Below, in pieces: positions 189 through 46,331 of a stretch of 46,331 bases of DNA. The stretch spans positions 1 through 46,331 of the forward strand of contig JACQGN010000136.1 of NCBI GenBank assembly GCA_016199545.1, written 5' to 3'. A model generated the notes under the pieces. That model ran no database searches, was not told where the DNA came from, and was given only the letters and a program-made list of their open reading frames with translations. How positions within the stretch are numbered: position 1 is the first letter of the stretch; each line of letters starts with the position of its first letter. This stretch comes from Betaproteobacteria bacterium. Its GTDB lineage: Bacteria > Pseudomonadota > Gammaproteobacteria > Burkholderiales > SG8-41. The translations under genes were made by a program, and so were the position numbers.

Positions 189-1256
189 ATGATGCAACGG
201 GCTGAAATCCACCATGTAGATTCGCACGATAACTTCGTCGAGCTCGCGTACGAGCAAGGATGGACTGACGGACTTCCAGTATTTCCACCGACGCGCAAGC
301 TCGTCGAGGCGATGATCGCATATGTCGGTCGTGATCCCGGCGAAGTGCTCGGCACCGTCTTCCCGGGTGACGGGGAAGCATCGATCGAAAAGATTGCTGC
401 GAACTGCGTGATGGCGGGATGCCGCCCGGAATATTTTCCTGTCGTGCTCGCCGCAGTTGAATGTATCGTCGATCAGACGCTGCTGCTCAATCCGACGCAG
501 TCCACCGGGGCATCCGGCGTGTTCACGCTCGTGAGCGGCCCCATCGTCGGCACGCTCAAGTTCCATACGCGCGAATGGCTTTTCGGCCCCAACGGAGGAC
601 GCGCAAATGCCACGATTGGCCGGGCTATCAGGCTGGTTCTGTGGAATATTGGACATGGCTATCCGGGCAAACTCCTCAAGGGCACCATGGGTCATCCAGC
701 AACGTGGAGCTACTGCATTGGTGAAGAGCAGGAGATTTCGCCGTGGGAGCCAGTGCATGTGGACATGGGGCTAGCGGCGACCGATAGCGCCGTCACCGTG
801 ATGAAAGCCGGGGAGCAGACCCAACTCACTGTGCCGCTCAACACGGTAGGGTTTAACGAGTGCATCACGCTGCTCGCTCGGGGAATCGGACGCCTCGGAA
901 TCCCTACGAGCGCAGGCAAGCGCGGCTACATCTTCGTCCTTAATCCGAGCCTCGCGCAGGCTTTTGCTCGCGCTGGCTATAACCGGATGCAAGTCAGGGC
1001 CGCCATCGCCGAACGGGCACGAAGACATATGTACGACTGGCAGCACGATCGCCATGATGATGCAGTGCCCTGCGCCGACCCCTTCACGGCATTCGCCAGC
1101 GAGCGTCCTGTTTTCGTTGGACGTGTCACGCCTGAAGAAATCATCATCGTGGTAGGCGGGGGCGAATCGGCGCAGATGGGTCAATGCGTGGCTATCGCCA
1201 GCCGAAGCTCGGTTGGTCAGCCGCTGGTCACAAAAAAGATCCGCAGTACAGGCTAA
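189..1256 (+). CDS. Conserved uncharacterised protein, UGSC-partner family (copy A)
   Basis: 355 aa ORF; motifs WTDGLPVFPPT, NCVMAGCRPEYFPV, RANATIGRAIRLV and PWEPVHV shared with four other proteins/domains in the window; directly upstream of a TGA-containing UGSC gene. Confidence 0.85.
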   Translation: MMQRAEIHHVDSHDNFVELAYEQGWTDGLPVFPPTRKLVEAMIAYVGRDPGEVLGTVFPGDGEASIEKIAANCVMAGCRPEYFPVVLAAVECIVDQTLLLNPTQSTGASGVFTLVSGPIVGTLKFHTREWLFGPNGGRANATIGRAIRLVLWNIGHGYPGKLLKGTMGHPATWSYCIGEEQEISPWEPVHVDMGLAATDSAVTVMKAGEQTQLTVPLNTVGFNECITLLARGIGRLGIPTSAGKRGYIFVLNPSLAQAFARAGYNRMQVRAAIAERARRHMYDWQHDRHDDAVPCADPFTAFASERPVFVGRVTPEEIIIVVGGGESAQMGQCVAIASRSSVGQPLVTKKIRSTG

Positions 1257-1269
1257 GCAAGGAGGCCAT

Positions 1270-1803
1270 ATGCTCGAACTCGTCGATCCAGTTGGCATCC
1301 CACGGCGAGAGTCCCAGGCACAGCGCCGCAACCTCGATACGCCAATTGGCCGGCGCGTCGGCTTCATCTGGAATCAGTATCCGACCACAAGAAACTTCTG
1401 GACGCGTTTCGAGCGGGCGCTCGAGGCGCTATGCACGCCGCCGCACGTAGCGCGCGCGTATAAACCGAACACTTGGTCGCCGCTCGCGTCCGAAACTTTC
1501 AAGAAGATTTCGGGAGAGGTCGACTACTTCGTGGTCGGTGTGGGAGCTTGAGGTTCTTGCACGGGCGCCGCCGTGCGCGACGCGTTTGCGGCCTGGAAAG
1601 TCGGTATGCCAGCAGTAGTCCTGGTGCATCAGCCCTTCGTGAATCTCGCGAAGGCTCAACTTCATGCACTGGGGGCGAAGGACCCAACGATGCTGGTTTA
1701 TGAGCAGGATGCCCCTGCGCTCGAATCGGATGAAAAGACCGAGGAGAAAGCGCGCAAGGCTGCGGCTGAGTTGGTTATCTTGCTGAGCCGCGGGACCGCT
1801 TGA
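1270..1803 (+). CDS. Putative selenoprotein, UGSC family (copy 1); TGA 1549-1551 read as Sec (VGVGA-U-GSC)
   Basis: ORFs 1213-1551 and 1573-1803 are in the same frame and separated only by TGA; ATG 1270 preceded by aaggagg; motif U-G-S-C; hairpin downstream of TGA. Confidence 0.88.
1558..1577 (+). promoter_or_regulatory. Candidate bSECIS hairpin, copy 1 (tGCACGG-gcgccg-CCGTGCg)
   Basis: 6 bp perfect stem plus one terminal T.G pair, 6 nt loop, starting 6 nt after the TGA. Confidence 0.5.
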
Positions 1804-5245: not shown

Positions 5246-5300
5246 GAGTTTTTGATTGTGGGACAAGGCGTGTGAACAAGTCAATCGTTCCTGGCACGCG

Positions 5301-6725
5301 ATGTCCGCGAATCCTCAAGCGAAGACGCTCGTCGAGAAGATCTGGGAGAGCCATGTGATTGCCGAGCTCTCGGACGGGCGAACGTTGCTGCATGTCGATC
5401 GGCATTTCCTGCACGACGGCACCAGCCGGCAGGCGTTCGACGGCATGCGGCGGATGCGGCGCCCCGTGCGCAACCGCGATCTCACTTTCGCTGTGGTCGA
5501 TCATATCGTTTCAACACTGCCGGGCAGAACCGGTGAGTCGCACCCGCCCGGCCGCGAGCGCATCCACGCCTTGCGCGACAACTGCCGGGAATTCGATCTG
5601 GAGCTCTACGATGTGGACAGTCCGCACCAGGGCATCGCGCACGTCGTCGCGCCCGAGCGCGGCATCACTCTGCCCGGCTGCACGCTCGCGTGCGGTGACA
5701 GCCACACCGCAACCAATGGCGGTCTGGGCGCGCTGGCGTGGGGCATCGGCACGACCGAGGTGATGCACGTGATGGCGGCCCAGGCGCTTCTGCAGCGCAA
5801 GCCGCAGCAGATGCGGATCTCATTTAGCGGCAGCATCGGGCCAGGGGTATTCGCGAAGGATCTGATCCTGTATTTCATCGCGCGTCACGGCGTGGCTGCC
5901 GGCAGCGGATGTGCCGTCGAGTACGCAGGCGCCGCCATTCGCTCGGCTCCGATCGAGGCGCGCATGACGATCTGCAACATGTCGATCGAGCTTGGCGCGC
6001 GTTTTGGTATCGTCGCGCCCGACGAAGTGACATTCGACTACGTCGCCGGCCGGCCGTTTGCGCCCACGGGGATGCAATGGGAGCGTGCGGTTGATGCGTG
6101 GCGCAAGCTCGGAACCGATCTCGACGCCCGCTTCGATCGGGAGTTCGAAATCGATTGCGCAGGGATCGCGCCGCAAGTTACGTGGGGAAACTCGCCGCAG
6201 GAGGCCGTCGGCATCGACGATGCTCTCCCGAATCCGGCGGACATTCCGGAACCCGGCCGGCGGCAAGCAGTTGAGCGCGCCTACACGTATATGGACCTCG
6301 AACCCGGGAGAAAACTCGAAGGCGTGCCGATCGACTTCGCCTTCATCGGCTCGTGCACCAACGCGCGGCTATCCGACCTGGAAGCCGCGGCGCGCGTTCT
6401 GCGGGGCCGCAAGGTGAAGGACGGGGTCACGGCGCTGGCGGTGCCAGGATCAATGGCCGTGAAATCAGCGGCGGAAGCGGCTGGCCTCGACAAAGTGTTC
6501 ATCGAGGCGGGATTCGAGTGGCGCAATGCGGGCTGCTCCATGTGCGTAGGCAGCAATGGCGATCTCGTGCCACCCGGCAAGCGTTCGATTTCCACCACCA
6601 ACCGCAACTTCGAGCACCGCCAGGGCCCGCACAGCCGAACACACCTCGCGAGCCCCGCAAGCGTTGCGGCGGCGGCGGTGAGCGGGTGTATTACCGATGT
6701 CCGCAGGTTGCTGGATCGGCGTTAG
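5301..6725 (+). CDS. leuC: Aconitase-family / 3-isopropylmalate dehydratase large subunit-like protein
   Basis: LPGCTLACGDSHTATNGGLGALAWGIGTTEV, FIGSCTNARLSDLEAAARVLRGRKV, NAGCSMCVGSNGD Fe-S ligand motifs; could be a catabolic paralogue rather than true LeuC. Confidence 0.88.
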   Translation: MSANPQAKTLVEKIWESHVIAELSDGRTLLHVDRHFLHDGTSRQAFDGMRRMRRPVRNRDLTFAVVDHIVSTLPGRTGESHPPGRERIHALRDNCREFDLELYDVDSPHQGIAHVVAPERGITLPGCTLACGDSHTATNGGLGALAWGIGTTEVMHVMAAQALLQRKPQQMRISFSGSIGPGVFAKDLILYFIARHGVAAGSGCAVEYAGAAIRSAPIEARMTICNMSIELGARFGIVAPDEVTFDYVAGRPFAPTGMQWERAVDAWRKLGTDLDARFDREFEIDCAGIAPQVTWGNSPQEAVGIDDALPNPADIPEPGRRQAVERAYTYMDLEPGRKLEGVPIDFAFIGSCTNARLSDLEAAARVLRGRKVKDGVTALAVPGSMAVKSAAEAAGLDKVFIEAGFEWRNAGCSMCVGSNGDLVPPGKRSISTTNRNFEHRQGPHSRTHLASPASVAAAAVSGCITDVRRLLDRR

Positions 6726-6735
6726 GAGCGGCACG

Positions 6736-7350
6736 ATGGAAAAGTTCACCGTAGTTACAGGCATCGCCGCTCCGATGATGATGCCGAACATCAACACGGA
6801 CGCGATTTCTCCGATGGCGGCGGGGCGCTCGACAGCGACTGATCTCGGCGTGATGCTGTTCGCGAACTGGCGCTACCGGCTCGATGGCAGCGAGATCGGC
6901 GATTTCGTGCTCAACCGGGAGCCGTTCCGGCGCAGCAAGACCATCGTCGCCGGGGAGAACTTCGGCTGCGGCAGTTCGCGCGAGCGCGCGGTGTGGGCGC
7001 TGATGCGCTTCGGCATCCGCTGCGTGATCGCTCCCAGCTTCGCTGACATCTTTCGCGAAAACGCCTTTCAAAACGGATTGCTCCCTGTTGTGGTTGGCAC
7101 GCAGGAGTGCGCAAGCCTTGCCGCGGCGCTCGAATGCGCGCAGGAGCCGCTGGTGACGGTTGACCTGGAGCGCTGCGTTGTTCAAGGACCCGAGGGCTGG
7201 ACAAGTTCGTTCGTTGTCCCCACGGAACGCCGCACGGCGCTATTGGAAGGCCTGGATGAGATTGACGTAATCCTGCGCATGGCGAAGGATATCGACGCCT
7301 TCCAGCGCCGCGACCGCGAACAGCGCCCCTGGATCTACCTCGAGCGATAA
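6736..7350 (+). CDS. leuD: 3-isopropylmalate dehydratase small subunit-like protein
   Basis: NINTDAISP, AGENFGCGSSRERAVWALMRFGIRCVIAPSFADIFRENAFQNGLLPV; immediately downstream of leuC-like gene. Confidence 0.9.
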   Translation: MEKFTVVTGIAAPMMMPNINTDAISPMAAGRSTATDLGVMLFANWRYRLDGSEIGDFVLNREPFRRSKTIVAGENFGCGSSRERAVWALMRFGIRCVIAPSFADIFRENAFQNGLLPVVVGTQECASLAAALECAQEPLVTVDLERCVVQGPEGWTSSFVVPTERRTALLEGLDEIDVILRMAKDIDAFQRRDREQRPWIYLER

Positions 7351-7382
7351 GTGCTGAACAGTCGTTGAGCTGAAGCGCCCTG

Positions 7383-7861
7383 ATGGAATTCTCGACCGCT
7401 GTGAAGCGATTACTGAGCGGGAGCCTGCTGATCGCGCTCGCCGGCGTGGCCGCGGCGCAGCAGCGCTACCCCAGCAAGCCGATACGCTTCATCCTGCCCA
7501 ACGCGCCGGGGGGCAGCAACAGCTTCGTCGCGCGACTTGTCGGAGAGAAGCTCACGGCGGATTGGGGACAACAGGTGATCGTGGACAGCCGTCCGGGCGG
7601 CAACAATGTGATCGCCGCCGAAGCGTTGCTGAGATCCAATCCCGATGGGCACACGATTCTCCTGGTCGAGATCGCAAGAATTCAAGCCATGCCGGACTTC
7701 AAGGAGAAGCTCGCTTAAGGAGTGTGTCAGGACAAAGTCCGGCACACTCCTAGGGCGTGGAACCCTTCGTCTCCGGGCTCGAGCCGTTCGCCGCGTTTAT
7801 CAAGGCCGAGATGGCGAAGTACGCGAAGATCATCAAGCTCGCGAACATCAAGATTGAATGA
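7383..7861 (+). pseudogene. Decayed Bug-family substrate-binding protein gene
   Basis: N-terminus (RYPSKPIRFILPNAPGGSNSFVARLVGEKL) intact; central region missing; after a palindrome the C-terminal remnant VEPFVSGLEPFAAFIKAEMAKYAKIIKLANIKIE follows. Confidence 0.8.
7718..7751. repeat. Imperfect palindrome AGGAGTGTG-tcaggacaaagtccgg-CACACTCCT
   Basis: 9 bp perfect outer inverted repeat plus inner GGAC/GTCC, lying in the Bug pseudogene. Confidence 0.75.
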
Positions 7862-8003
7862 AGGTTGTCGGGGAACGCTGCGCGTACCCCGACATCCGTT
7901 ACGCGTTAGGTAGCCGTCGATCCGGCAACCTGACGTCTGGCCCTCCCTGGTCAAAGAGGCGGGAATCGCGTTTATTGACGCAGTAGAATTTGATGAGGAT
8001 CAC

Positions 8004-9254
8004 ATGTCCGACGATATCGCACGGCAATTTGACGCAGTAAACGGGCACGAACGGGTGCGAAAGGGACTCGCGTTCCTGCAAAGTGACGCGCCCAGGACCC
8101 TGGAAGAACAGAAGGCGATGACGGTCATCCCGGCGCCGCCGTTCAAGGAGCAGGCGCGCGCGGAGTATTTCCGGGACCGCCTCGCAGGCGCAGGCGTCCG
8201 TAATGTGCGCATCGATGCCGAAGGCAACGTGATCGGCGTGCACCGTGGAAGCGGCGGGCCGACGCTCGTGCTCTCGGCGCACATCGACACGGTGTTTCCT
8301 GAGGGCACCGATCTCACCATCACCGAGAAAGACGGCCTGCTCATTGCGCCCGGCATCCGGGATGACAGCCGGGGGCTCGCCGCGGTGCTGTCGGTTGCGC
8401 GCGCATTCGCCGAGACGGGATTGAAGACCGGAGGCGACATCTGGTTCGTCGGCACGGTCGGTGAGGAGGGTCTGGGCAACTTGCGCGGGGTGCGGGCACT
8501 ATTTCGCGACCACGCGGCGATCGGCGGATTCATCTCGATCGATGGCGGGGACATGGGGCGCGTGGTAACGGGCGCCACGGGAAGCCGGCGTTATCGCGTG
8601 ACATACAGGGGGCCGGGTGGCCACAGCTTCGGTGCGTTCGGGCTGCCGAGCGCGGTGCATGCCCTGGGCCGCGCGATCGCGAAGATTTCCGAGATGCGCA
8701 CGCCGCAGGACCCCAAGACCACGTTCAACGTAGGCCGGGTGCGTGGCGGAACCGGCGCGACCGCGATCGCGGAGGATGCCGTGATGGACCTCGACCTGCG
8801 TTCGAACTCCGGCGAAGAACTGGAAAAGATCGCAGCGCGTGCGCTCGTGCTGATCGGCGAGGCCGCGGGGGAAGAAAACGCGCGCTGGAACTCCGATCGT
8901 CTCACCGTGGCGACGGAAGACCTCGGTGCCCGGCCGGCCGGAGCACAGCCCACGGATCTCCCGATCGTGCGCGCTGCCGTCGCATCCCTCAATTCGCTGG
9001 GCGTGAATGAAATCCAGTATGTCGCGAGCTCGACCGATTGCAACATACCGATCAGCCTCGGCATCCCGGCGGTAGCGCTGGCTGGCGGCGGAAAAAGCGG
9101 CGGCAACCATTCTTTGACCGAGTGGTACGACCCGCGCTTAAGCCATCTCGGGCCGCAGAATGCGTTTCTCACGGTCCTGACCCTGGTGGGTCTCGAGGGT
9201 GTGACGCAACCGGCATTGCTGCGGCGGTCCGACGCGAGAATTTCGCGCACATGA
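8004..9254 (+). CDS. M20-family metallopeptidase/deacylase
   Basis: LVLSAHIDTVFPEGTDLTI, GIRDDSRGLAAVLSVARAF, GTVGEEGLGNLRG, GGHSFGAFG motifs. Confidence 0.88.
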   Translation: MSDDIARQFDAVNGHERVRKGLAFLQSDAPRTLEEQKAMTVIPAPPFKEQARAEYFRDRLAGAGVRNVRIDAEGNVIGVHRGSGGPTLVLSAHIDTVFPEGTDLTITEKDGLLIAPGIRDDSRGLAAVLSVARAFAETGLKTGGDIWFVGTVGEEGLGNLRGVRALFRDHAAIGGFISIDGGDMGRVVTGATGSRRYRVTYRGPGGHSFGAFGLPSAVHALGRAIAKISEMRTPQDPKTTFNVGRVRGGTGATAIAEDAVMDLDLRSNSGEELEKIAARALVLIGEAAGEENARWNSDRLTVATEDLGARPAGAQPTDLPIVRAAVASLNSLGVNEIQYVASSTDCNIPISLGIPAVALAGGGKSGGNHSLTEWYDPRLSHLGPQNAFLTVLTLVGLEGVTQPALLRRSDARISRT

Positions 9255-9332
9255 AAGCAATTTATCGCTGATGTCAGCTTGGATTGCGGTTTTCTCAAAG
9301 GGGGGCAGCATGAACATAAGCGAGCACGGCAA

Positions 9333-10763
9333 ATGACAAGAGCAGAGAAGCAGGAAACGGTCGATCAGGAGCTCGTCGACATTGCGAAATACGTCTGCGA
9401 GTACAGGGTCGAAGATCCAAACGCCTATGCGGCGGCGCGCAGGTGTCTCGTCGACGCGCTGGCGTGTGCGTTCTGGGCATGGGAGCACCCCGAGTGCACG
9501 AAGCTGCTTGGCCCGATTGTGCCGGGCGCGACGGTCTGGCGCGGCGCCCGCGTGCCGGGCTCGAGGCTGGAACTCGATCCCGCGAGCGCCGCTTTCAATA
9601 TCGGCACGCTCGTGCGCTGGCTCGACTACAACGACACGTTCACCGCGGCACAGGGCAGCCACCCGTCCGACACGCTCGCCGGCATTGTGGCGACTGCCGA
9701 TTATCTGAGCCGGGGGCGGCTCCTCGAGCAGCGCCCGCCGCTCACGATGAAAGACGTGCTGGAGGCGCTGATCAAGGCCTACGAGATCCAGGGCTGCATT
9801 GCGATCGAAAACGACTTCAACGCGATCGGCGTCGATCACATCATACTCACGCGCGTCGCCGTGGCTGCCGTCGTGACGCGGCTGCTCGGCGGAACTTACG
9901 ATGAAGTCTTCAGCGCCGCATCGAACGCCTGGATGGATCCGAACCTGCGCGTCTACAGACAGGCGTCCGGCACCGGCCCGCGCAAAGGCTGGGCGGCAGC
10001 CGATGCTTCCGCGCAGTCGGTGCGCCTCGCGTACATGGCGTTGCGAGGTGAGCCCGGCTACGCACAGGCGCTGTCGGCAAAAAAATGGGGCTTCTACGAC
10101 GTTTTGATGCACGGCGAACGCTTCAAGTTCCAGCGCCCGTACGGCGAATACGTCATCCAGAACGCGATGCTGAAGTTCGTCCCGGCCGGCATGCACGGAC
10201 AGTCCGCGGTCGAATGCGCCTTCCTCCAGCATCCGCGCGTGAAGGACCGCCTCGGCGACATCGATGGAATCCAGATCTTCAGCCAGCGCGCGCTGATGGG
10301 CGTCATGGACAAGACGGGCCCGCTCAGGAATCCCGCCGACCGCGACCACTGCGTGCAGTACGTCACCGCGATCGGCCTCATCTCCGGCAAGCTGCACCCG
10401 CTGGACTACGAAGATGATGTCGCAGCCGATCCGCGCATCGATGCGCTGCGCGAGAAAATGACCGTCACCGAGGACCCGCGCTTCACTCAGGGCTTCTACG
10501 ACCCCGCCAGGCGCTCCAGCGCGAACGGGCTGCAGATCCTTTTCAAGGACGGCACCAGCACGCCGCGCGTCGATGTTGAGTTTCCCGCCGGGCATCCGCG
10601 GCGCCGCAACGAGACCGCCGGGATTTTCCGCCGCAAGTTCGTCGATTCGCTGAACCTGCGCTTTGCGCCGAAGCAGAGGGACCGCATACTAGAGTTCTGC
10701 GACGATCAGGCGCGATTCGAAGCGACGCCCGTGAACGAATTCATGGACGCGTTTGTCGTCTGA
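9333..10763 (+). CDS. MmgE/PrpD family protein (2-methylcitrate dehydratase-like), copy 1
   Basis: ALACAFWAWEHPEC..., WLDYNDTFTAAQGSHPSDTLAGI, GWAAADASAQSVRLAYMALRG. Confidence 0.85.
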   Translation: MTRAEKQETVDQELVDIAKYVCEYRVEDPNAYAAARRCLVDALACAFWAWEHPECTKLLGPIVPGATVWRGARVPGSRLELDPASAAFNIGTLVRWLDYNDTFTAAQGSHPSDTLAGIVATADYLSRGRLLEQRPPLTMKDVLEALIKAYEIQGCIAIENDFNAIGVDHIILTRVAVAAVVTRLLGGTYDEVFSAASNAWMDPNLRVYRQASGTGPRKGWAAADASAQSVRLAYMALRGEPGYAQALSAKKWGFYDVLMHGERFKFQRPYGEYVIQNAMLKFVPAGMHGQSAVECAFLQHPRVKDRLGDIDGIQIFSQRALMGVMDKTGPLRNPADRDHCVQYVTAIGLISGKLHPLDYEDDVAADPRIDALREKMTVTEDPRFTQGFYDPARRSSANGLQILFKDGTSTPRVDVEFPAGHPRRRNETAGIFRRKFVDSLNLRFAPKQRDRILEFCDDQARFEATPVNEFMDAFVV

Positions 10764-15130: not shown

Positions 15131-15658
15131 ATGAACATTCTTGATCCAACCATTGCGACGGCGCGGGACCATATCGACTACGTGGCGCGCCCGAAGAGCC
15201 TTGCGGGATTGCGCATCGGACTTATCGAAAACACCAAGAAAAACGCAGAAGCCGTTTTGCGGAAGGTGGCCGAGAGACTGGAAGCCTCCCATGGCATGAG
15301 CTTGGAAGTGTTGGTGCGCAAGCCCCAGCGTGCGCCGCTCAAGGACGCCCAGATTGCCGAACTCAAGGGAAGAACGGACTTCGTGATCGCGGGAGTCGGT
15401 GACTGAGGGGCATGTTCGTCGGGCAGTTTGCTCGACGCGGTCATACTCGAAAAAGCAGGAATTCCGGCGGTCCCGATCATAACGGATGCTTTCGAAGCCA
15501 CGGCCAAGGAAATGGCCGGCCTGTGGGGCGTACCGGATTTCCGCTTTGTGATGATGCCACATCCGCTTGCCAGCCTGACGCTGGGCGACCTTGAGCGGCG
15601 CACCGATGGGTTGCTCAACCAAGTGCTCAAGTTGTTGCAGGAAGGCCAACCGGATTAA
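15131..15658 (+). CDS. Putative selenoprotein, UGSC family (copy 2); TGA 15404-15406 read as Sec (GVGD-U-GAC)
   Basis: ORFs 15131-15406 and 15428-15658 in the same frame; DFVIAGVGD-U-GACSSGSLLDAVILEKAGIPAVPII; strong hairpin after TGA; partner family gene directly downstream. Confidence 0.92.
15417..15437 (+). promoter_or_regulatory. Candidate bSECIS hairpin, copy 2 (CGTCGGGCA-gtt-TGCTCGACG)
   Basis: 9 bp stem (one G.U), 3 nt loop, stem begins 10 nt after TGA. Confidence 0.75.
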
Positions 15659-15696: not shown

Positions 15697-16770
15697 TTGG
15701 CAAGCACAACAGGCGCGACGTCAGGGCTTACCGAGGCTGAAGGCGAAGCTTGTATTCCGGTGAATGCTTCGGAACAGATCGAGTTTTGCTTCACGCGTGG
15801 GTGGACCGATGGTTTGCCAGTAGTTCCGGCGACACGCGCATTGGTCAACGACATGCTCGAAGGGGGCGGTCTGAGGCCCGAGACCGTGATTGCCGAAATG
15901 CCATCGCGGAAAGTTTCCGTCACCGCGGAAAAAGTGGCCATCAACGCGGTCATGGCAGGCTGCAAACCGGAATACATGCCAGTTGTGAGCGCCGCGGTGA
16001 AAGCGCTCGCAGCACCCGAGTTCGGCCTCCATCACGTCGCCTCGGCGCTGGCCGGGCCGACGATCGTGATCCTTGTTAATGGCCCGATTGCAAAAAAACT
16101 TGGGATCAATGCCGCCGGCAATCTGTTTGGCCCAGGAGTCCGCGCGAATGCAACCATCGGTCGAGCACTAAGGCTGGTGCTGCTTAACTGCCTGAAATAC
16201 AGCCCCGGAATTTCCGACCGCGCGACCATGGGCACACCTGGCAAGTATACGTGCTGTATCGCCGAAAACGAGGAAGACCACCCATGGGAACCATGGCACG
16301 TGGAACGGGGCTTCAATCGGGAAGACAGCACGGTCACGCTGGTTGCGGCGAACACCATGATCCAGATCTGGAATTACGGCAATCATGAACAGTTGCTGCG
16401 CTCCGTCGGTGATGCCCTGTCGTACTTGGGATCGATTGCGATTCTCGGGCAAACACCGGGCGCTGTCGTGTTGGGCGGTGAGCACGCGGAACTCTTGCGC
16501 GCGAGCGGCTGGTGCAAGAAACAAGTTCGCGAGTTCATCGTTCAATGCACGGGGCGCAGCGTGGCCGATCTCAAGCGTACCGGTCGTGTGGACGGCGACG
16601 TCGTTTCAGACGATGAAGTGACGTTGCACTATGCCATGGATACGCCAGAAGACTTAATGCTCATTTGTGCCGGCAGCCCCATTGGCGCGCTTTCCATGGT
16701 GCTGCCGGGATTCGGCTCATCGAAGACGGCGGGACGCAGTCCGGCGATTTTGATCGATGCTCCTCGCTGA
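15697..16770 (+). CDS. Conserved uncharacterised protein, UGSC-partner family (copy B)
   Basis: WTDGLPVVPATRALVNDML, NAVMAGCKPEYMPVV, VRANATIGRALRLVLLNC, YTCCIAENEEDHPWEPWHV. Confidence 0.85.
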   Translation: MASTTGATSGLTEAEGEACIPVNASEQIEFCFTRGWTDGLPVVPATRALVNDMLEGGGLRPETVIAEMPSRKVSVTAEKVAINAVMAGCKPEYMPVVSAAVKALAAPEFGLHHVASALAGPTIVILVNGPIAKKLGINAAGNLFGPGVRANATIGRALRLVLLNCLKYSPGISDRATMGTPGKYTCCIAENEEDHPWEPWHVERGFNREDSTVTLVAANTMIQIWNYGNHEQLLRSVGDALSYLGSIAILGQTPGAVVLGGEHAELLRASGWCKKQVREFIVQCTGRSVADLKRTGRVDGDVVSDDEVTLHYAMDTPEDLMLICAGSPIGALSMVLPGFGSSKTAGRSPAILIDAPR

Positions 16771-27309: not shown

Positions 27310-28374
27310 TCATTGAATCAGTATCGGGCGGCTGCGGCCTGCGGCCTTCGATCCGCCGAAGCCCGGAAGCACCATTGAAAGCAGGCCGATCGGACTTCCC
27401 GCGCAAATCAGCATGAGTTCCTCGGGCGCATCGAGCGCGTAGTGGAATTTCGTTTCGTCGGCGGCCGTGATCTCGCCGTCGACGCGGCCCGCGCGCTTGA
27501 GGTCGGCCACCGTGCGGCCGCTATGCGCCACGATGAATTCGCGAATCTGTTTCTTGTTCCAGCCGCTCCGGCGCAGGAGTTGCGCATGCTCTCCGCCGAA
27601 AATGACTGCGCCCGGCGTCTGGCTCGTAATGGCGATCGATCCCAGGAACGACATGGCGTCGCCGACGCAGCGCAGCAGCTGCTCGTGTTCGCTGAAGTTC
27701 CAGATCTGCGTCATCGTGCTCGCCGCGAGCAGGGTGACTACACTGTCCTCGGGTTTGAAGCCGCACTCGACGTGCCATGGTTCCCAGGGATGGTCGTCCT
27801 CGTTTTCGGCGATACAGCAGGTGTATTTCCCCGGGGTTCCGAATGTCGCTGCGTCGGCCGTCGCTGGGTGATAGCGCAGACAATTCAGCAGCACCAGGCG
27901 CAGCGCACGCCCGATCGCCGCATTTGCGCGCACGCCCGGGCCGAACAGATTGTTCTTCGCGTTGATGCCCAGCTTCTTCGCGATCGGACCATTCACCAGA
28001 ATGATGGTGGTTGCCCCGGAGTGACCGGACGCGACGTGATGCAGCCCAAATTCCGGGGCCGCCAGACCCTTCACGGCCGCGGCCACCACGGGCATGTATT
28101 CCGGCTTGCAGCCTGCCATGACCGCGTTGATGGCGACTTTTTCTGCGGTCAGCGAGACGTTGCGCGAAGGCATCTCGGCCAGCACGGTGTCGCCTGCCAA
28201 GCCCGCGGCCTCGAGCATGTCGTCGACCAGTTCCTGCGTTGCCGGAATGACTGGCAGCCCATCCGTCCATCCGCGGGCATGGCAAAACTCCACCTGTTGC
28301 GCAACACTGAACGGAATACACGCTTCGCCCTCACCGGCGGCAATGTCTGGGGCTGGATCCTGCGTCATCGCCAT
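27310..28374 (-). CDS. Conserved uncharacterised protein, UGSC-partner family (copy C)
   Basis: WTDGLPVIPATQELVDDML, NAVMAGCKPEYMPVV, VRANAAIGRALRLVLLNC; its ATG directly abuts the stop of the upstream UGSC gene. Confidence 0.85.
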   Translation of the reverse strand: MAMTQDPAPDIAAGEGEACIPFSVAQQVEFCHARGWTDGLPVIPATQELVDDMLEAAGLAGDTVLAEMPSRNVSLTAEKVAINAVMAGCKPEYMPVVAAAVKGLAAPEFGLHHVASGHSGATTIILVNGPIAKKLGINAKNNLFGPGVRANAAIGRALRLVLLNCLRYHPATADAATFGTPGKYTCCIAENEDDHPWEPWHVECGFKPEDSVVTLLAASTMTQIWNFSEHEQLLRCVGDAMSFLGSIAITSQTPGAVIFGGEHAQLLRRSGWNKKQIREFIVAHSGRTVADLKRAGRVDGEITAADETKFHYALDAPEELMLICAGSPIGLLSMVLPGFGGSKAAGRSRPILIQ

Positions 28375-28944
28375 TCAAGTCTCCAGCCGGCGTGGTTCGG
28401 GTGGGCAAAGCATTTGGGTCGGCTGGCCGTGCTGCAACAGTCCGAGAACCCTGCCGAGCAACTCGTCTGCGCCATTGTCGATCTCCTCGGGCGTCAGGTA
28501 CGCGAGCGGGTGGGGCATCATCACGAAACGGAACTCCGGAACTCCCCACAGCTCCGCCATTTCACGGGCTGCAGGCTGAAAAACGTCGGTGATGATAGGC
28601 ACCGCCGGAATGCCGGCCTTTTCGAGGATCATGGCGTCGAGCAGACTGCCCGACGAGCACGCCCCTCAGTCTCCGACGCCAACGACCACAAAGTCCGTTC
28701 TGCCCTTGAGCTCTGCGATCTGCGTGTCCGTAAGGGGCGCACGCTGAGACTTGTGCACCAGCACTTCCATTTTCATGCCATAGGCGCTCGCCCCTTTCTG
28801 CGCCAGCATGCGCAACACGGCCTCGGAATTCTTCTTAGTGTTTTCGATGAGACCGATACGCAGTCCGTCGAGCGCGGCCGGGCGCGGCACGTAATCGATG
28901 CGCGTGCGCGGTGCGGCAACCGTTGGATCAAGTATCCCGAGCAT
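28375..28944 (-). CDS. Putative selenoprotein, UGSC family (copy 3); TGA at 28668-28666 read as Sec (GVGD-U-GAC)
   Basis: Minus-strand ORFs 28944-28666 and 28632-28375 in the same frame; DFVVVGVGD-U-GACSSGSLLDAMILEKAGIPAVPII; aaggagg upstream of ATG; hairpin after TGA. Confidence 0.92.
28635..28655 (-). promoter_or_regulatory. Candidate bSECIS hairpin, copy 3 (CGTCGGGCA-gtc-TGCTCGACG)
   Basis: 9 bp stem, 3 nt loop, stem begins 10 nt after TGA, same stem as copy 2 with a changed loop base. Confidence 0.75.
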
Positions 28945-39107: not shown

Positions 39108-40877
39108 ATGAGGACGGGTCCGATGCGCTCAGGAATTCATGGCCCTCGTTACGAAGTGCTATGGCCCCTGGCCAAGAAAGCGGTGCGTGCGCAAAGCGCC
39201 GCGCCGCGATTGCCCGACCTTTCCGGCAAGACCGTCGGGGAGCTATGGGACTATATCTTCCGGGGTGAGGTCGTCTATCCGATGATACGCGAGCGGCTCC
39301 GCGCGCGTTTCCCCGGCATCAAGTTCATCGAGTATCACGAGTTCGGCAATTTTCACGGCGCGCGGTCCCGGGAAATCGTTGCCGGGCTGGCCGACAAGAT
39401 GCGTACGCGCGGCTGCGATGCGATCATCTCGGGGATAGGCGCCTGAGGAAACTGCGCGCCCGCCGTGTTGCGGGCGAGTGCGGTGGCCGAAAAGATCGGC
39501 ATACCGACCGTATCGATAATCGGCTCGGCGTTCATGAAACAGGCGGCGGTCGTGTGCCGGGGCCTGGGCATTCCGTTCGCGCTCGCCGAATATCCCGGCG
39601 CACCCATGGTGGACAGCGACGCGGAGTTGCGCGCCAAGGTCGAAACGAACCTGCTACCAGCGATCATCGAGGGGCTGACCGCGGTTTCCGGCCCGGCCAT
39701 GGGAGAAGCATTGACGGAACCCGAGATCGGGTCGGTCGTGTTCAAGGGGACGCTTGACGAGGTCCAGGAGCATTTCCATCAGAACCTGTGGAGCGACGGC
39801 TTGCCCGTCATCCCGCCGACCCGCGAGTGGGTCGATGCTTTTCTGAAATTCACCGACCGCGACCCACGGGATGTGATACGTGCGCTCCCGCAGGAGGGAC
39901 GCGAAGCGAGCATATTGAGCATTGCCGTAAACGGTGTCATGGCGGGCTGCCGGCCGGAATACATGCCGCTGCTCGTCGCAATCGTGGAGGCGATTTCCGA
40001 TCCGAATTTCCGTATCGAGGCAGCCGGGTCAACGCCCGCGTGGGAACCCCTGGTCGTCGTAAGCGGCCCCATCGTCGAGGAGCTTGACTTCAACTACGGC
40101 CAGGGCGTGTTAAAGGTCGGACGCCAGGCCAACTCCAGCATCGGCCGGTTCGCGCGGCTCTACATGCGCAACATTTGCGGCTACCGTATCCCGCCAGGGA
40201 CTGGCGACAAGGGAAGCATAGGGTACACTTTCAACGTTGCGCTTGCGGAAGACGAAGAGTGGTCGCGCAATATCGGCTGGCCCACCTTTTCCGAAGACGC
40301 CGGTTTCGGCCCCGGCGATAACGTCGTCACGGTTCAAAGCGTGGTGACTAGCAGCCCACCGACCTACAGCGCTGGCGATACCGCGATCAGGCACGTACAG
40401 CAATTCGCAGATGTCTTCGTGCGCGCGTTCTCATATGGCTCACATTCGGGAGTAAAGCGCGGCTACTGGCACCCTCTGGTCGTAATCGGGCCGAGCATCG
40501 CCAAGGTCATCGCGCGAGAGTGGACCAAGGATGACGTTCGGCGTTTTCTGTGGAAGACAATGACGATCCCGGCGTCCCTGATGCGCCATTTCTGCGCGCA
40601 GACCGCGGCGCAGGACATGGATTTTGCAAAGCTTGTCGGCGAAGGAACGCTGCCGGCCCACTACGCGCCATCGGACGATCCGGATCGACCGGTCCCGATT
40701 ATCGTCAAACCCGAACATATCGGAATACTCATAGCCGGGGACCCTGGGAGAAACCAGTCGCGCGGCTACATGTCGAACAATGCGCAGGGGGCGCGCACCA
40801 GCCGACGCGTCGCGCTTCCCCGCGAGTGGGAGAAGCTGCGGGCGCAACAGAGAGGACCGGCACTTGCGCAACGATGA
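39108..40877 (+). CDS. Putative fused selenoprotein: UGSC-type domain (TGA 39444-39446 as Sec, GIGA-U-GNC) plus UGSC-partner domain (copy D)
   Basis: ORFs 39108-39446 and 39465-40877 in the same frame; downstream part carries SDGLPVIPPTREWVDAF, NGVMAGCRPEYMPLL, RQANSSIGRFARL; hairpin after TGA. Confidence 0.88.
39457..39476 (+). promoter_or_regulatory. Candidate bSECIS hairpin, copy 4 (CGCCCGC-cgtgtt-GCGGGCG)
   Basis: 7 bp perfect stem, 6 nt loop, stem begins 10 nt after TGA. Confidence 0.7.
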
Positions 40878-41894: not shown

Positions 41895-42935
41895 ATGAGT
41901 GAGCGTTCGGGCATCGCCGAAACTGCAGACCTCGAAGTCCCTGACGACATCGACGCGATGTTCGACGCGCTATACGAGCGCGGCGTGACGGACGGGCTCC
42001 CGGTCATCCCGCCCACGGCGGCCCGCGTCGGGACCATGATGGCCGCCGTGCCGCTCGACCCGGGCCATGTGCTGGCCGAGCTGCCGCCGCGCGGCGGCCT
42101 CGCGACCGTCGAGAAAGTCGCCGTCAACGCCGTCATGGCGGGCTGCCGCCCGGATTATTTCCCGGTGGTGGTCGCCGCGGTGGAAGCACTGGTGCAGCCG
42201 CAGTTCAACCTCACTGGCATCCAGACCACTACCAATCCGGTGGCGCCGCTGGTGTTGATCAACGGCCCCGTCCGCAATCGCATCGGCGTCAACTGCGGCG
42301 CGGGCGCGCTCGGTCCGGGCTGGCGCGCCAATGCGACCGTCGGTCGCGCGCTGCGGCTCGTCATGGTCAACGTCGGCGGCGCAACACCGGGTGACGTCGA
42401 CAAATCTATCCTCGGGATGCCGGGCAAGTACACGCTGTGTCTTGGCGAGCTTGAGGAGCTGAACCCGTGGGAGCCGTTCCACGTCGAGCGGGGTTACGCG
42501 CCGGGCGAGAGCACGGTGACGCTGATCAGCGTGCAGGGCACGCAGAGCTGCGCGGCATCCTACACCGAGCCCGAGCCGATCCTTAGGATGCTCTCGAACG
42601 CGATGACCGCCTTTGGCGCCAACAGCTACACCAAGGGCAACGGCAATCCGGTCGTGATCCTGCCGCCGGCGCACGCGCGCATCTTCGCTGGCGCCGGCTG
42701 GGACAAGAGGCAGATCAAGCAGGCGCTCTTCGAGCGCACGATGTACCCGCAGGCGGAGTTCCCGATGCGCCTGCTCGACACCACCGCGCGGCAGCAGATC
42801 CACGACGGCAGGGTGTGCATTTGCCGCCGGGCGGAAGACATCGTCGTCATCGTCGCCGGCGGCCCGGAATTGAACCACATCGGGTTTCTTGCGAGCTTCG
42901 GCAACGATCTCGCGATCAATCCGATTCGATACTGA
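41895..42935 (+). CDS. Conserved uncharacterised protein, UGSC-partner family (copy E)
   Basis: VTDGLPVIPPTAARVGTMM, NAVMAGCRPDYFPVV, WRANATVGRALRLVMVNVG, YTLCLGELEELNPWEPFHV. Confidence 0.85.
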   Translation: MSERSGIAETADLEVPDDIDAMFDALYERGVTDGLPVIPPTAARVGTMMAAVPLDPGHVLAELPPRGGLATVEKVAVNAVMAGCRPDYFPVVVAAVEALVQPQFNLTGIQTTTNPVAPLVLINGPVRNRIGVNCGAGALGPGWRANATVGRALRLVMVNVGGATPGDVDKSILGMPGKYTLCLGELEELNPWEPFHVERGYAPGESTVTLISVQGTQSCAASYTEPEPILRMLSNAMTAFGANSYTKGNGNPVVILPPAHARIFAGAGWDKRQIKQALFERTMYPQAEFPMRLLDTTARQQIHDGRVCICRRAEDIVVIVAGGPELNHIGFLASFGNDLAINPIRY

Positions 42936-42953: not shown

Positions 42954-43499
42954 ATGAAGATACTGAATCCCGTCGGGGCGCCGCGCACGAGCGGAGAACG
43001 CGCGTTGCTTACGGTCTCCGGAATCGCCGGGCTGCGGCTCGCCATACTCACCAATCACTGGAAGAGCATGGACCGCATGGCGCGGCGCATGATCGCGCGC
43101 GCCAGCGAGCGCTACGCGGCGGTCGGAGTCGAGCTCTACGATATCCCGATCAACGGCCCGATGGCGGAGGCGGTCGAGCACGGCGTGCTGCAAGACTGCG
43201 ACGCCGCGATCGTCGGGCTCGCCAACTGAGGCTCCTGCACGTCGTGGAGTGTCCACGACGCCAGCAGGCTGGTCTCGGCGGGCAAGCCCGCAGTGGTGCT
43301 CGCGACCGAGGCCTTCGCGAAACTCGCGAAGGTGACGCTCGACGCGCGCAGGCTGCCGGGCACGCTTGCAATCGTGATCAGGGGCAACCCGGAATTCCTC
43401 GACGAGCCCGCATTGGCGCAGGTTGCCGACCGCGTGCTCGACGAGGCCGTGCGGCGGCTGACGACGGGCGCCGGCTCGATAGAATCGCTCATCGGCTAA
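42954..43499 (+). CDS. Putative selenoprotein, UGSC family (copy 5); TGA 43227-43229 read as Sec (GLAN-U-GSC)
   Basis: ORFs 42954-43229 and 43293-43499 in the same frame; CDAAIVGLAN-U-GSCTSWSVHDASRLVSAGKPAVVLATEAFAKLAKVTL; strongest hairpin of the set. Confidence 0.92.
43240..43260 (+). promoter_or_regulatory. Candidate bSECIS hairpin, copy 5 (CGTCGTGGA-gtg-TCCACGACG)
   Basis: 9 bp perfect stem, 3 nt loop, stem begins 10 nt after TGA; additional outer CCTGC/GCAGG pairing possible. Confidence 0.8.
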
Positions 43500-45998: not shown

Positions 45999-46331
45999 CA
46001 GCCTGTCGGACTTACCCGGCCGAAGCACCCCGAGCGACCGGAACGATAGGCGGATGAGTTCGTCATAAGTGTATCCCGTTTGAAGATGCCGAGAGTGTAG
46101 CCATGGTGAATTTCCGTCCGATCGATCGCGCCACGCCCTATCTGTTGCCGCCCTCGGTCGAGGAATGGCTGCCCAAGGATCACCTGGCGCGCTTCGTGGT
46201 CGATATCGTCGATCAGCTTGATCTGTTGGCGCTCACCCGGCAGTACCGTGGCAGCGGTTCCGCTGCCTATCACCCGACGGTGATGCTTGGTTTGTTCATC
46301 TAAGGCTACGCCACAGGCGTGTATTCGAGCC
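45995..46331 (+). mobile_element. Left end and start of an insertion sequence (IS1182-like transposase gene), truncated by window end
   Basis: End motif CTAGCAGCCTGTCGGACTTACC followed by transposase N-terminus MVNFRPIDRATPYLLPPSVEEWLPKDHLARFVVDIVDQLDL; in-frame TAA at 46301-46303. Confidence 0.75.

Follow-up and report, generated by a model that had tools for sequence, protein, structure and literature searches.

Does the TGA at positions 1549-1551 end the open reading frame that starts at position 1270, or is it decoded as selenocysteine (Sec), and what would the full-length product do? The frame had been predicted from its letters to be copy 1 of a UGSC selenoprotein gene, with a hairpin behind the TGA that was atypical for a bacterial Sec insertion element (SECIS). 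Since 2008 UGSC proteins have been listed as one of the most frequent groups of environmental selenoproteins, and no function has been assigned to them (GOS survey, PMC2398784). The window analysed here, the whole stretch of 46,331 nucleotides, is contig C69 of draft genome G000 (4.41 Mb in 349 contigs, 78.7% complete). The features around copy 1 are as follows.

189..1256, + strand: partner gene A, 355 aa, directly upstream of copy 1; conserved family without a Pfam or NCBIfam model
1259..1265, + strand: Shine-Dalgarno sequence AAGGAGG, seen in the sequence
1270..1803, + strand: UGSC selenoprotein gene copy 1, 177 aa, with predicted Sec94 and Cys97 (U-G-S-C); from frame translation, Pfam/NCBIfam matches and an AlphaFold model
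1549..1551, + strand: in-frame UGA, predicted to be decoded as Sec; one in-frame TGA in 30 of 32 paralogs, Cys in other homologues

Reading frame and family membership

Translation of 1270-1803 gave a single frame, as had been claimed, in which the only stops are TGA 1549-1551 (U94) and the terminal TGA 1801-1803. The latter is most likely the true stop, because two sibling copies in the source genome, C80 and C198, end in TAG near the equivalent position. The start codon, ATG 1270-1272, lies 13 nt downstream of TAA 1254-1256 of partner gene A, and the good Shine-Dalgarno site proposed for it is indeed present.

Copy 1 matched the Pfam family UGSC (PF24696) with an E-value of 1.6e-29 and 103.7 bits (gathering cut-off 25), residues 3-172 aligning with positions 1-170 of the 172-position model. 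The match spans the TGA, so that the parts before and after it belong to one domain. The motif reads VGVGAUGSCTG and contains the U/C-G-S-C signature (alignments A1 and A7). In its full-length domain, U-G-S-C and UGA-encoded Sec, copy 1 is like the UGSC family described by PF24696, by NCBIfam UGSC_fam (NF041046) and as the UGSC-containing protein of the GOS survey (PMC2398784). Unlike the typical family it has a short-spaced SECIS, and its NF041046 score (70.6 bits) is below the equivalog cut-off of 125, so we regard it as a divergent member; it is 17-40% identical to most relatives and about 64-71% identical only to its own small subgroup.

Predicted selenocysteine decoding of the UGA

The source genome encodes SelA (586 bits), SelB (438 bits), SelD (410 bits) and a tRNA-Sec with anticodon tca (77.6 bits). 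The selA and selB genes are adjacent, and the SelD gene itself carries an internal TGA. A TrxB-like gene (phmmer, 9e-48) shares the small contig C258 (L059/L046) with selA and selB. The Sec position is occupied by Cys in homologues from Natrialba and Geodermatophilaceae and in plasmid copies from Arthrobacter and Variovorax. The UGSC selenoprotein reading is thus supported by the PF24696 match, the Sec machinery, the 30 paralogs with a TGA and the Cys homologues, and judging from these comparisons the UGA of copy 1 is almost certainly decoded as Sec. SelA, SelB, SelC and SelD of the host would decode UGA 1549-1551 as Sec94, and the decoding signal would be the hairpin directly 3' of the UGA, a bacterial SECIS variant with short spacing.

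1558..1577, + strand: SECIS hairpin of copy 1, minimum free energy (MFE) fold; 7 bp, TGCACGG (1558-1564)/CCGTGCG (1571-1577), loop GCGCCG (1565-1570)
within 1558..1577, + strand: alternative SECIS fold, TGCAC-[G1563]-GGC-GCC-GCC-GTGCG, with a 1-nt bulge and loop 1567-1569; compatible with the orthologs

The published bSECIS model has a loop of 3-9 nt with G in the first two loop positions and a stem of 4-16 bp (PMC13188914 Fig. 2), a UGA-to-loop distance of 16-37 nt and an MFE of at most -7.5 kcal/mol (PMC13188914). The MFE fold of copy 1 agrees with the hairpin that had been described, starting 6 nt after the TGA with a 6-nt loop, and the fold compatible with all six orthologs has its loop 15 nt after the UGA. 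The spacing is 13 nt in the MFE fold (about -11.1 to -12.5 kcal/mol) and 15 nt in the ortholog-compatible fold (-8.5 kcal/mol), both below the 16-37 nt of the model; in all other respects the conserved hairpin falls within it. Copy 1 therefore shares with the bSECIS consensus (PMC13188914 Fig. 2) a hairpin just after the UGA, a small loop starting in G and at least 4 bp, but its loop lies at 13-15 nt and is without GU. C80, C198, L071, L072 and G127 have C in place of G1563 and pair as TGCAC-[C]-GGC-GCY-GCC-GTGCG with a 3-nt loop and a spacing of 15.

Most paralogs are more regular. The bSECIS model is satisfied by 26 of the 29 testable copies in the source genome, where about 8.7 are expected from synonymous recoding, and the typical paralog has an 8-bp stem (e.g. 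GUCGUGGA/UCCACGAC) with the loop GUN 19 nt after the UGA. The outliers in this genome are copy 1 and its siblings C80 and C198, so the description of copy 1 as the least typical SECIS of the set holds jointly with these two (spacing 13 or 15). Among 300 genomes of the order, the short-spaced motif occurs only in the source genome (three copies) and in G127; it is a rare subtype. An Rfam search of the window gave no match.

The energy of the copy 1 hairpin is not significant by itself, as 12.7% of synonymous recodings of this GC-rich stretch are as stable, and the case for the hairpin therefore rests on codon freezing among orthologs. Across six orthologs (64-86% identical), synonymous identity in codons +3 to +10 after the UGA is 0.917, whereas the best of 149 other windows stops at 0.732, and invariant codons make up 6 of 8 in the stem versus 9 of 75 elsewhere (Fisher p=3e-4). 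Such freezing of synonymous sites points to conservation at the nucleotide level precisely at the hairpin. It is very unlikely that Sec is inserted by means of some other downstream structure or a tolerant SelB and not through this hairpin: copy 1 does meet the bSECIS model by way of an unrelated second hairpin (spacing 27, -7.7 kcal/mol), but 68% of recoded controls equal that score, and the frozen codons centre on +3 to +10, where the first hairpin lies. It is hardly credible that the UGA is a real stop, leaving a 93-aa truncated product or a decaying pseudogene, since the off-model hairpin of ordinary stability that would favour it stands against a domain match running past the UGA to residue 172, a frame with no further stop before the terminal TGA, and a UGA, UGSC motif and frozen stem codons that are all kept in the six orthologs. 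With Sec insertion at the first hairpin as the preferred reading, a single SelB serves about 30 natural SECIS elements within the same cell. Copy 1 marks the edge of this set, which is a ready panel for measuring SECIS tolerance.

Expansion of UGSC in the source genome and its relatives

The source genome gave 32 UGSC matches. Exactly one in-frame TGA is found in 30 of them, at the UGSC residue wherever this is readable; the other two are a Cys form (CGTS, C261) and a contig-end fragment. Median pairwise identity among the copies is 26%; given this strong divergence, they are not a recent tandem array. Four further copies lie in the window.

15131..15658, + strand: UGSC paralog of the GVGDUGACSSG type; partner downstream at 15697-16770
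28375..28944, - strand: UGSC paralog; partner at 27310-28374 (-)
39108..40877, + strand: UGSC-partner fusion paralog with a UGNC motif, one reading frame
42954..43499, + strand: UGSC paralog, SECIS loop GUG at 19 nt; partner upstream at about 41895-42935

All 74 genomes examined of the bacterial family to which the source belongs contain UGSC, with 1 to at least 40 matches per genome. In an order-wide sample UGSC was present in 11 of 100 genomes, and multiple copies occurred in three families only. The largest bacterial selenoproteome cited in a 2016 survey, that of Syntrophobacter fumaroxidans, comprises 39 genes of many families (PMC5029168). With 30 Sec copies of a single family at 78.7% completeness, the source genome approaches that record, as do relatives with at least 40 matches.

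On plasmid p2-T1 of Acidovorax sp. T1, an IncP plasmid, the annotation of a UGSC gene (L181:8640-8930) stops at the Sec TGA and gives a short hypothetical protein. The gene has a standard-looking SECIS, and its neighbours are genes for a TctC receptor and an isocitrate lyase/PEP mutase, near IS1071.

The partner protein

Copy 1 had been placed directly after a partner gene. This arrangement proved to be general: the partner adjoins or is fused to UGSC in 29 of the 32 source-genome copies, the remaining three being cut by contig ends, and a genome search that used just the partner as query gave 80 loci, 71 of them with UGSC nearby. The partner may lie upstream or downstream of UGSC or be fused to it C-terminally, and nine source-genome UGSC copies have open frames of more than 540 aa. 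Another example of a UGSC-partner fusion is L026:6451-8040. Partner loci span Betaproteobacteria, Chloroflexota/SAR202, Rokubacteria, Binatia, Poribacteria, Nitrospinota, other Proteobacteria, Bacillus and Natrialba. Residues D27 G28, A76 G77, G117 P118, R145, E179, W186 and G324 are invariant (alignments A2 and A4).

Partner A matched no Pfam or NCBIfam family at E<=0.1. PDB sequence searches with the UGSC and partner profiles gave chance-level matches only, and no solved structure resembling the partner was found by Foldseek of the fused model or by PDB profile search. A UGSC/Unknown_1 fusion has been known since 2008 (PMC2398784), and the partner is probably this Unknown_1 domain.

Predicted fold

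The AlphaFold model of copy 1 is confident (pLDDT 88, pTM 0.83). It consists of five beta-alpha units in alternation, and Sec94 falls after strand 86-92 and before helix 95-110. Its best PDB structure matches are flavodoxin-like, at the level of topology only (TM about 0.45). The predicted fold of copy 1 is thus a (beta-alpha)5 domain of flavodoxin-like type, in which Sec sits at the strand 3 tip and the helix 3 N-terminus. A fused UGSC-partner protein was modelled as one unit with very high confidence (pLDDT 95, pTM 0.93).

Two other assignments were rejected. A thioredoxin-like fold was proposed for UGSC in 2008 (PMC2398784), but the model has the (beta-alpha)5 arrangement and flavodoxin-like best matches in the PDB. 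Kinship with PALP/cysteine synthase (including 5xem) was weak, below cut-off and confined to a glycine-rich strand-loop, and was treated as convergent.

Probable relation to GrdB and PrdB

GrdB is the substrate-binding subunit of glycine reductase, and PrdB is homologous to it (PMC13188914). Aligned by hhalign, the UGSC profile matched GrdB with a probability of 85.9% (E 5e-6, score 43.9, shuffle maximum 29.1) and a PrdB-like family with 54% (E 1.3e-4, score 34.3, shuffle maximum 19.8). Both alignments place U on U and C on C, though the match is weak and covers about 80-116 columns. When the U and C columns were masked, the same alignments were recovered with scores down to 29.5 (GrdB) and 26.5 (PrdB-like). 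PF07355 (GrdB/PrdB) gave no match to copy 1 at E<=0.1. On these profile comparisons, the Sec domain of UGSC is probably a remote homologue of that of GrdB/PrdB.

GrdB, the Sec subunit of glycine/sarcosine/betaine reductase (PF07355), resembles UGSC in that its C-terminal region, which bears the Sec, has U-G-T/S-C-T, a helix and E..G-(I/V)-P-(A/T) at equal spacing, and each of the two adjoins a second protein. UGSC differs in being without the long N-terminal region of GrdB and in having a partner that is not GrdE-like. The PrdB-like selenoprotein (short GRDB family, L155) shares with UGSC the pattern DAVLLTPV-U-PNC-T, a helix of equal length and a G-I-A-T strand, but it has an extra N-terminal segment, belongs to a separate Pfam family, and no UGSC partner was noted for it. 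The partner showed no profile similarity to GrdE (probability 0.4%) or to GrdB, and so does not match the GrdE/PrdA-type pyruvoyl partner of glycine and proline reductase. As it is not GrdE-like and is without a solved relative, pyruvoyl chemistry is not implied for UGSC.

The PrdB-like selenoprotein is present in one copy in the source genome (L155:1216-1956, - strand, contig C298), with a TGA at residue 155 in DTVFLVPIUPKC; U is kept in more than 20 relatives (L157-L179). A relative (L156, G049 C148) carries a full-length GrdB gene with an in-frame TGA (STUGTCTRC); the gene after it is GrdE-like, as judged by eye. The locus is a candidate for a glycine/betaine-type reductase in this betaproteobacterial family.

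Genomic context and proposed function

TctC/Bug receptors account for 33 of the 111 proteins neighbouring UGSC, followed in frequency by MmgE/PrpD, amidases and HpcH/HpaI aldolases. Because TctC genes are abundant genome-wide (150 scored, 307 candidates), their proximity to UGSC is to be read as enrichment only. In the Cys-form operon of Arthrobacter sp. ERGS1:01 the gene order is trxB-trxA-partner-UGSC, and a UGSC cluster of Variovorax SRS16 contains trxB; trx genes lie near few UGSC loci and are not general neighbours.

By sequence and comparison, copy 1 is almost certainly a genuine selenoprotein gene. We propose that its product supplies the Sec half of a reductase made up of two proteins, linked to thioredoxin and related to GrdB/PrdB, whose substrates would be small carboxylates. 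This functional reading has a probability of roughly 0.5. The reductase part is based on the GrdB/PrdB profile link and on trxB/trxA beside some relatives, and the substrate class on the TctC, MmgE/PrpD, amidase and aldolase neighbours. The UGSC domain would be the selenolate half, while the 355-aa partner would bind the substrate. Sec94 would attack the substrate, and Cys97 would resolve the intermediate, giving a Se-S bond that thioredoxin would reduce again. Substrates would probably be small carboxylates imported via TctC/Bug receptors, and the UGSC paralogs may have diversified toward different ones.

A non-reductive enzyme, in which the Sec/Cys pair serves nucleophilic or acid-base catalysis of a racemase, lyase or transferase type on a partner-bound carboxylate with no net redox, is unlikely. 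The place of the active residue, where strand 3 and helix 3 meet at the tip in a flavodoxin-like fold, would suit it, as would the dehydratase, isomerase and aldolase neighbours and the aconitase X/DUF126 genes near relatives in Vibrio and Sporomusa; however, the second Cys of UxxC is nearly invariant, as in redox selenoproteins, and some relatives have trxB/trxA in their operon. The UxxC motif is also what would be expected of a general thioredoxin-like thiol-disulfide oxidoreductase with the partner as an accessory, as suggested in 2008. We consider this quite unlikely, since the predicted fold has five beta-alpha units and is flavodoxin-like, not thioredoxin-like, the profile similarity leads to GrdB/PrdB, and a constant single partner among catabolic neighbours indicates an enzyme with a defined substrate.

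The activity of the proposed two-protein reductase is directly testable, given the predicted fold, the constant partner, the remote reductase link and the redox context. Tentatively, UGSC-partner pairs might stand next to glycine and proline reductase as a third, large branch of reductases that depend on selenium, widespread across bacterial phyla with Cys forms in haloarchaea and raised to at least 40 copies per genome in one betaproteobacterial family for different small molecules, copy 1 being a case in which the Sec machinery would tolerate a SECIS loop at 13-15 nt. The literature searched yielded nothing on UGSC function or on a UGSC-GrdB relation; the family itself is already known, and the SECIS subtype, expansion, fold and GrdB link are additions not found in that literature.

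On plasmid pVEu of Vibrio europaeus (L184) and on pSPTER of Sporomusa termitida (L185), a long protein with a UGSC partner domain is encoded next to aconitase X and DUF126 genes, which gives a hint of a hydroxy-acid substrate. Within the window, positions 5256-10763 hold a LeuC/LeuD pair and PrpD (2-methylcitrate dehydratase) in a TctC-rich block, outside any leucine operon seen there. At 46104-46331, a frame cut by the contig end resembles, by eye, the N-terminus of an IS transposase (MVNFRPIDRATPYLLPPSVEEWL).
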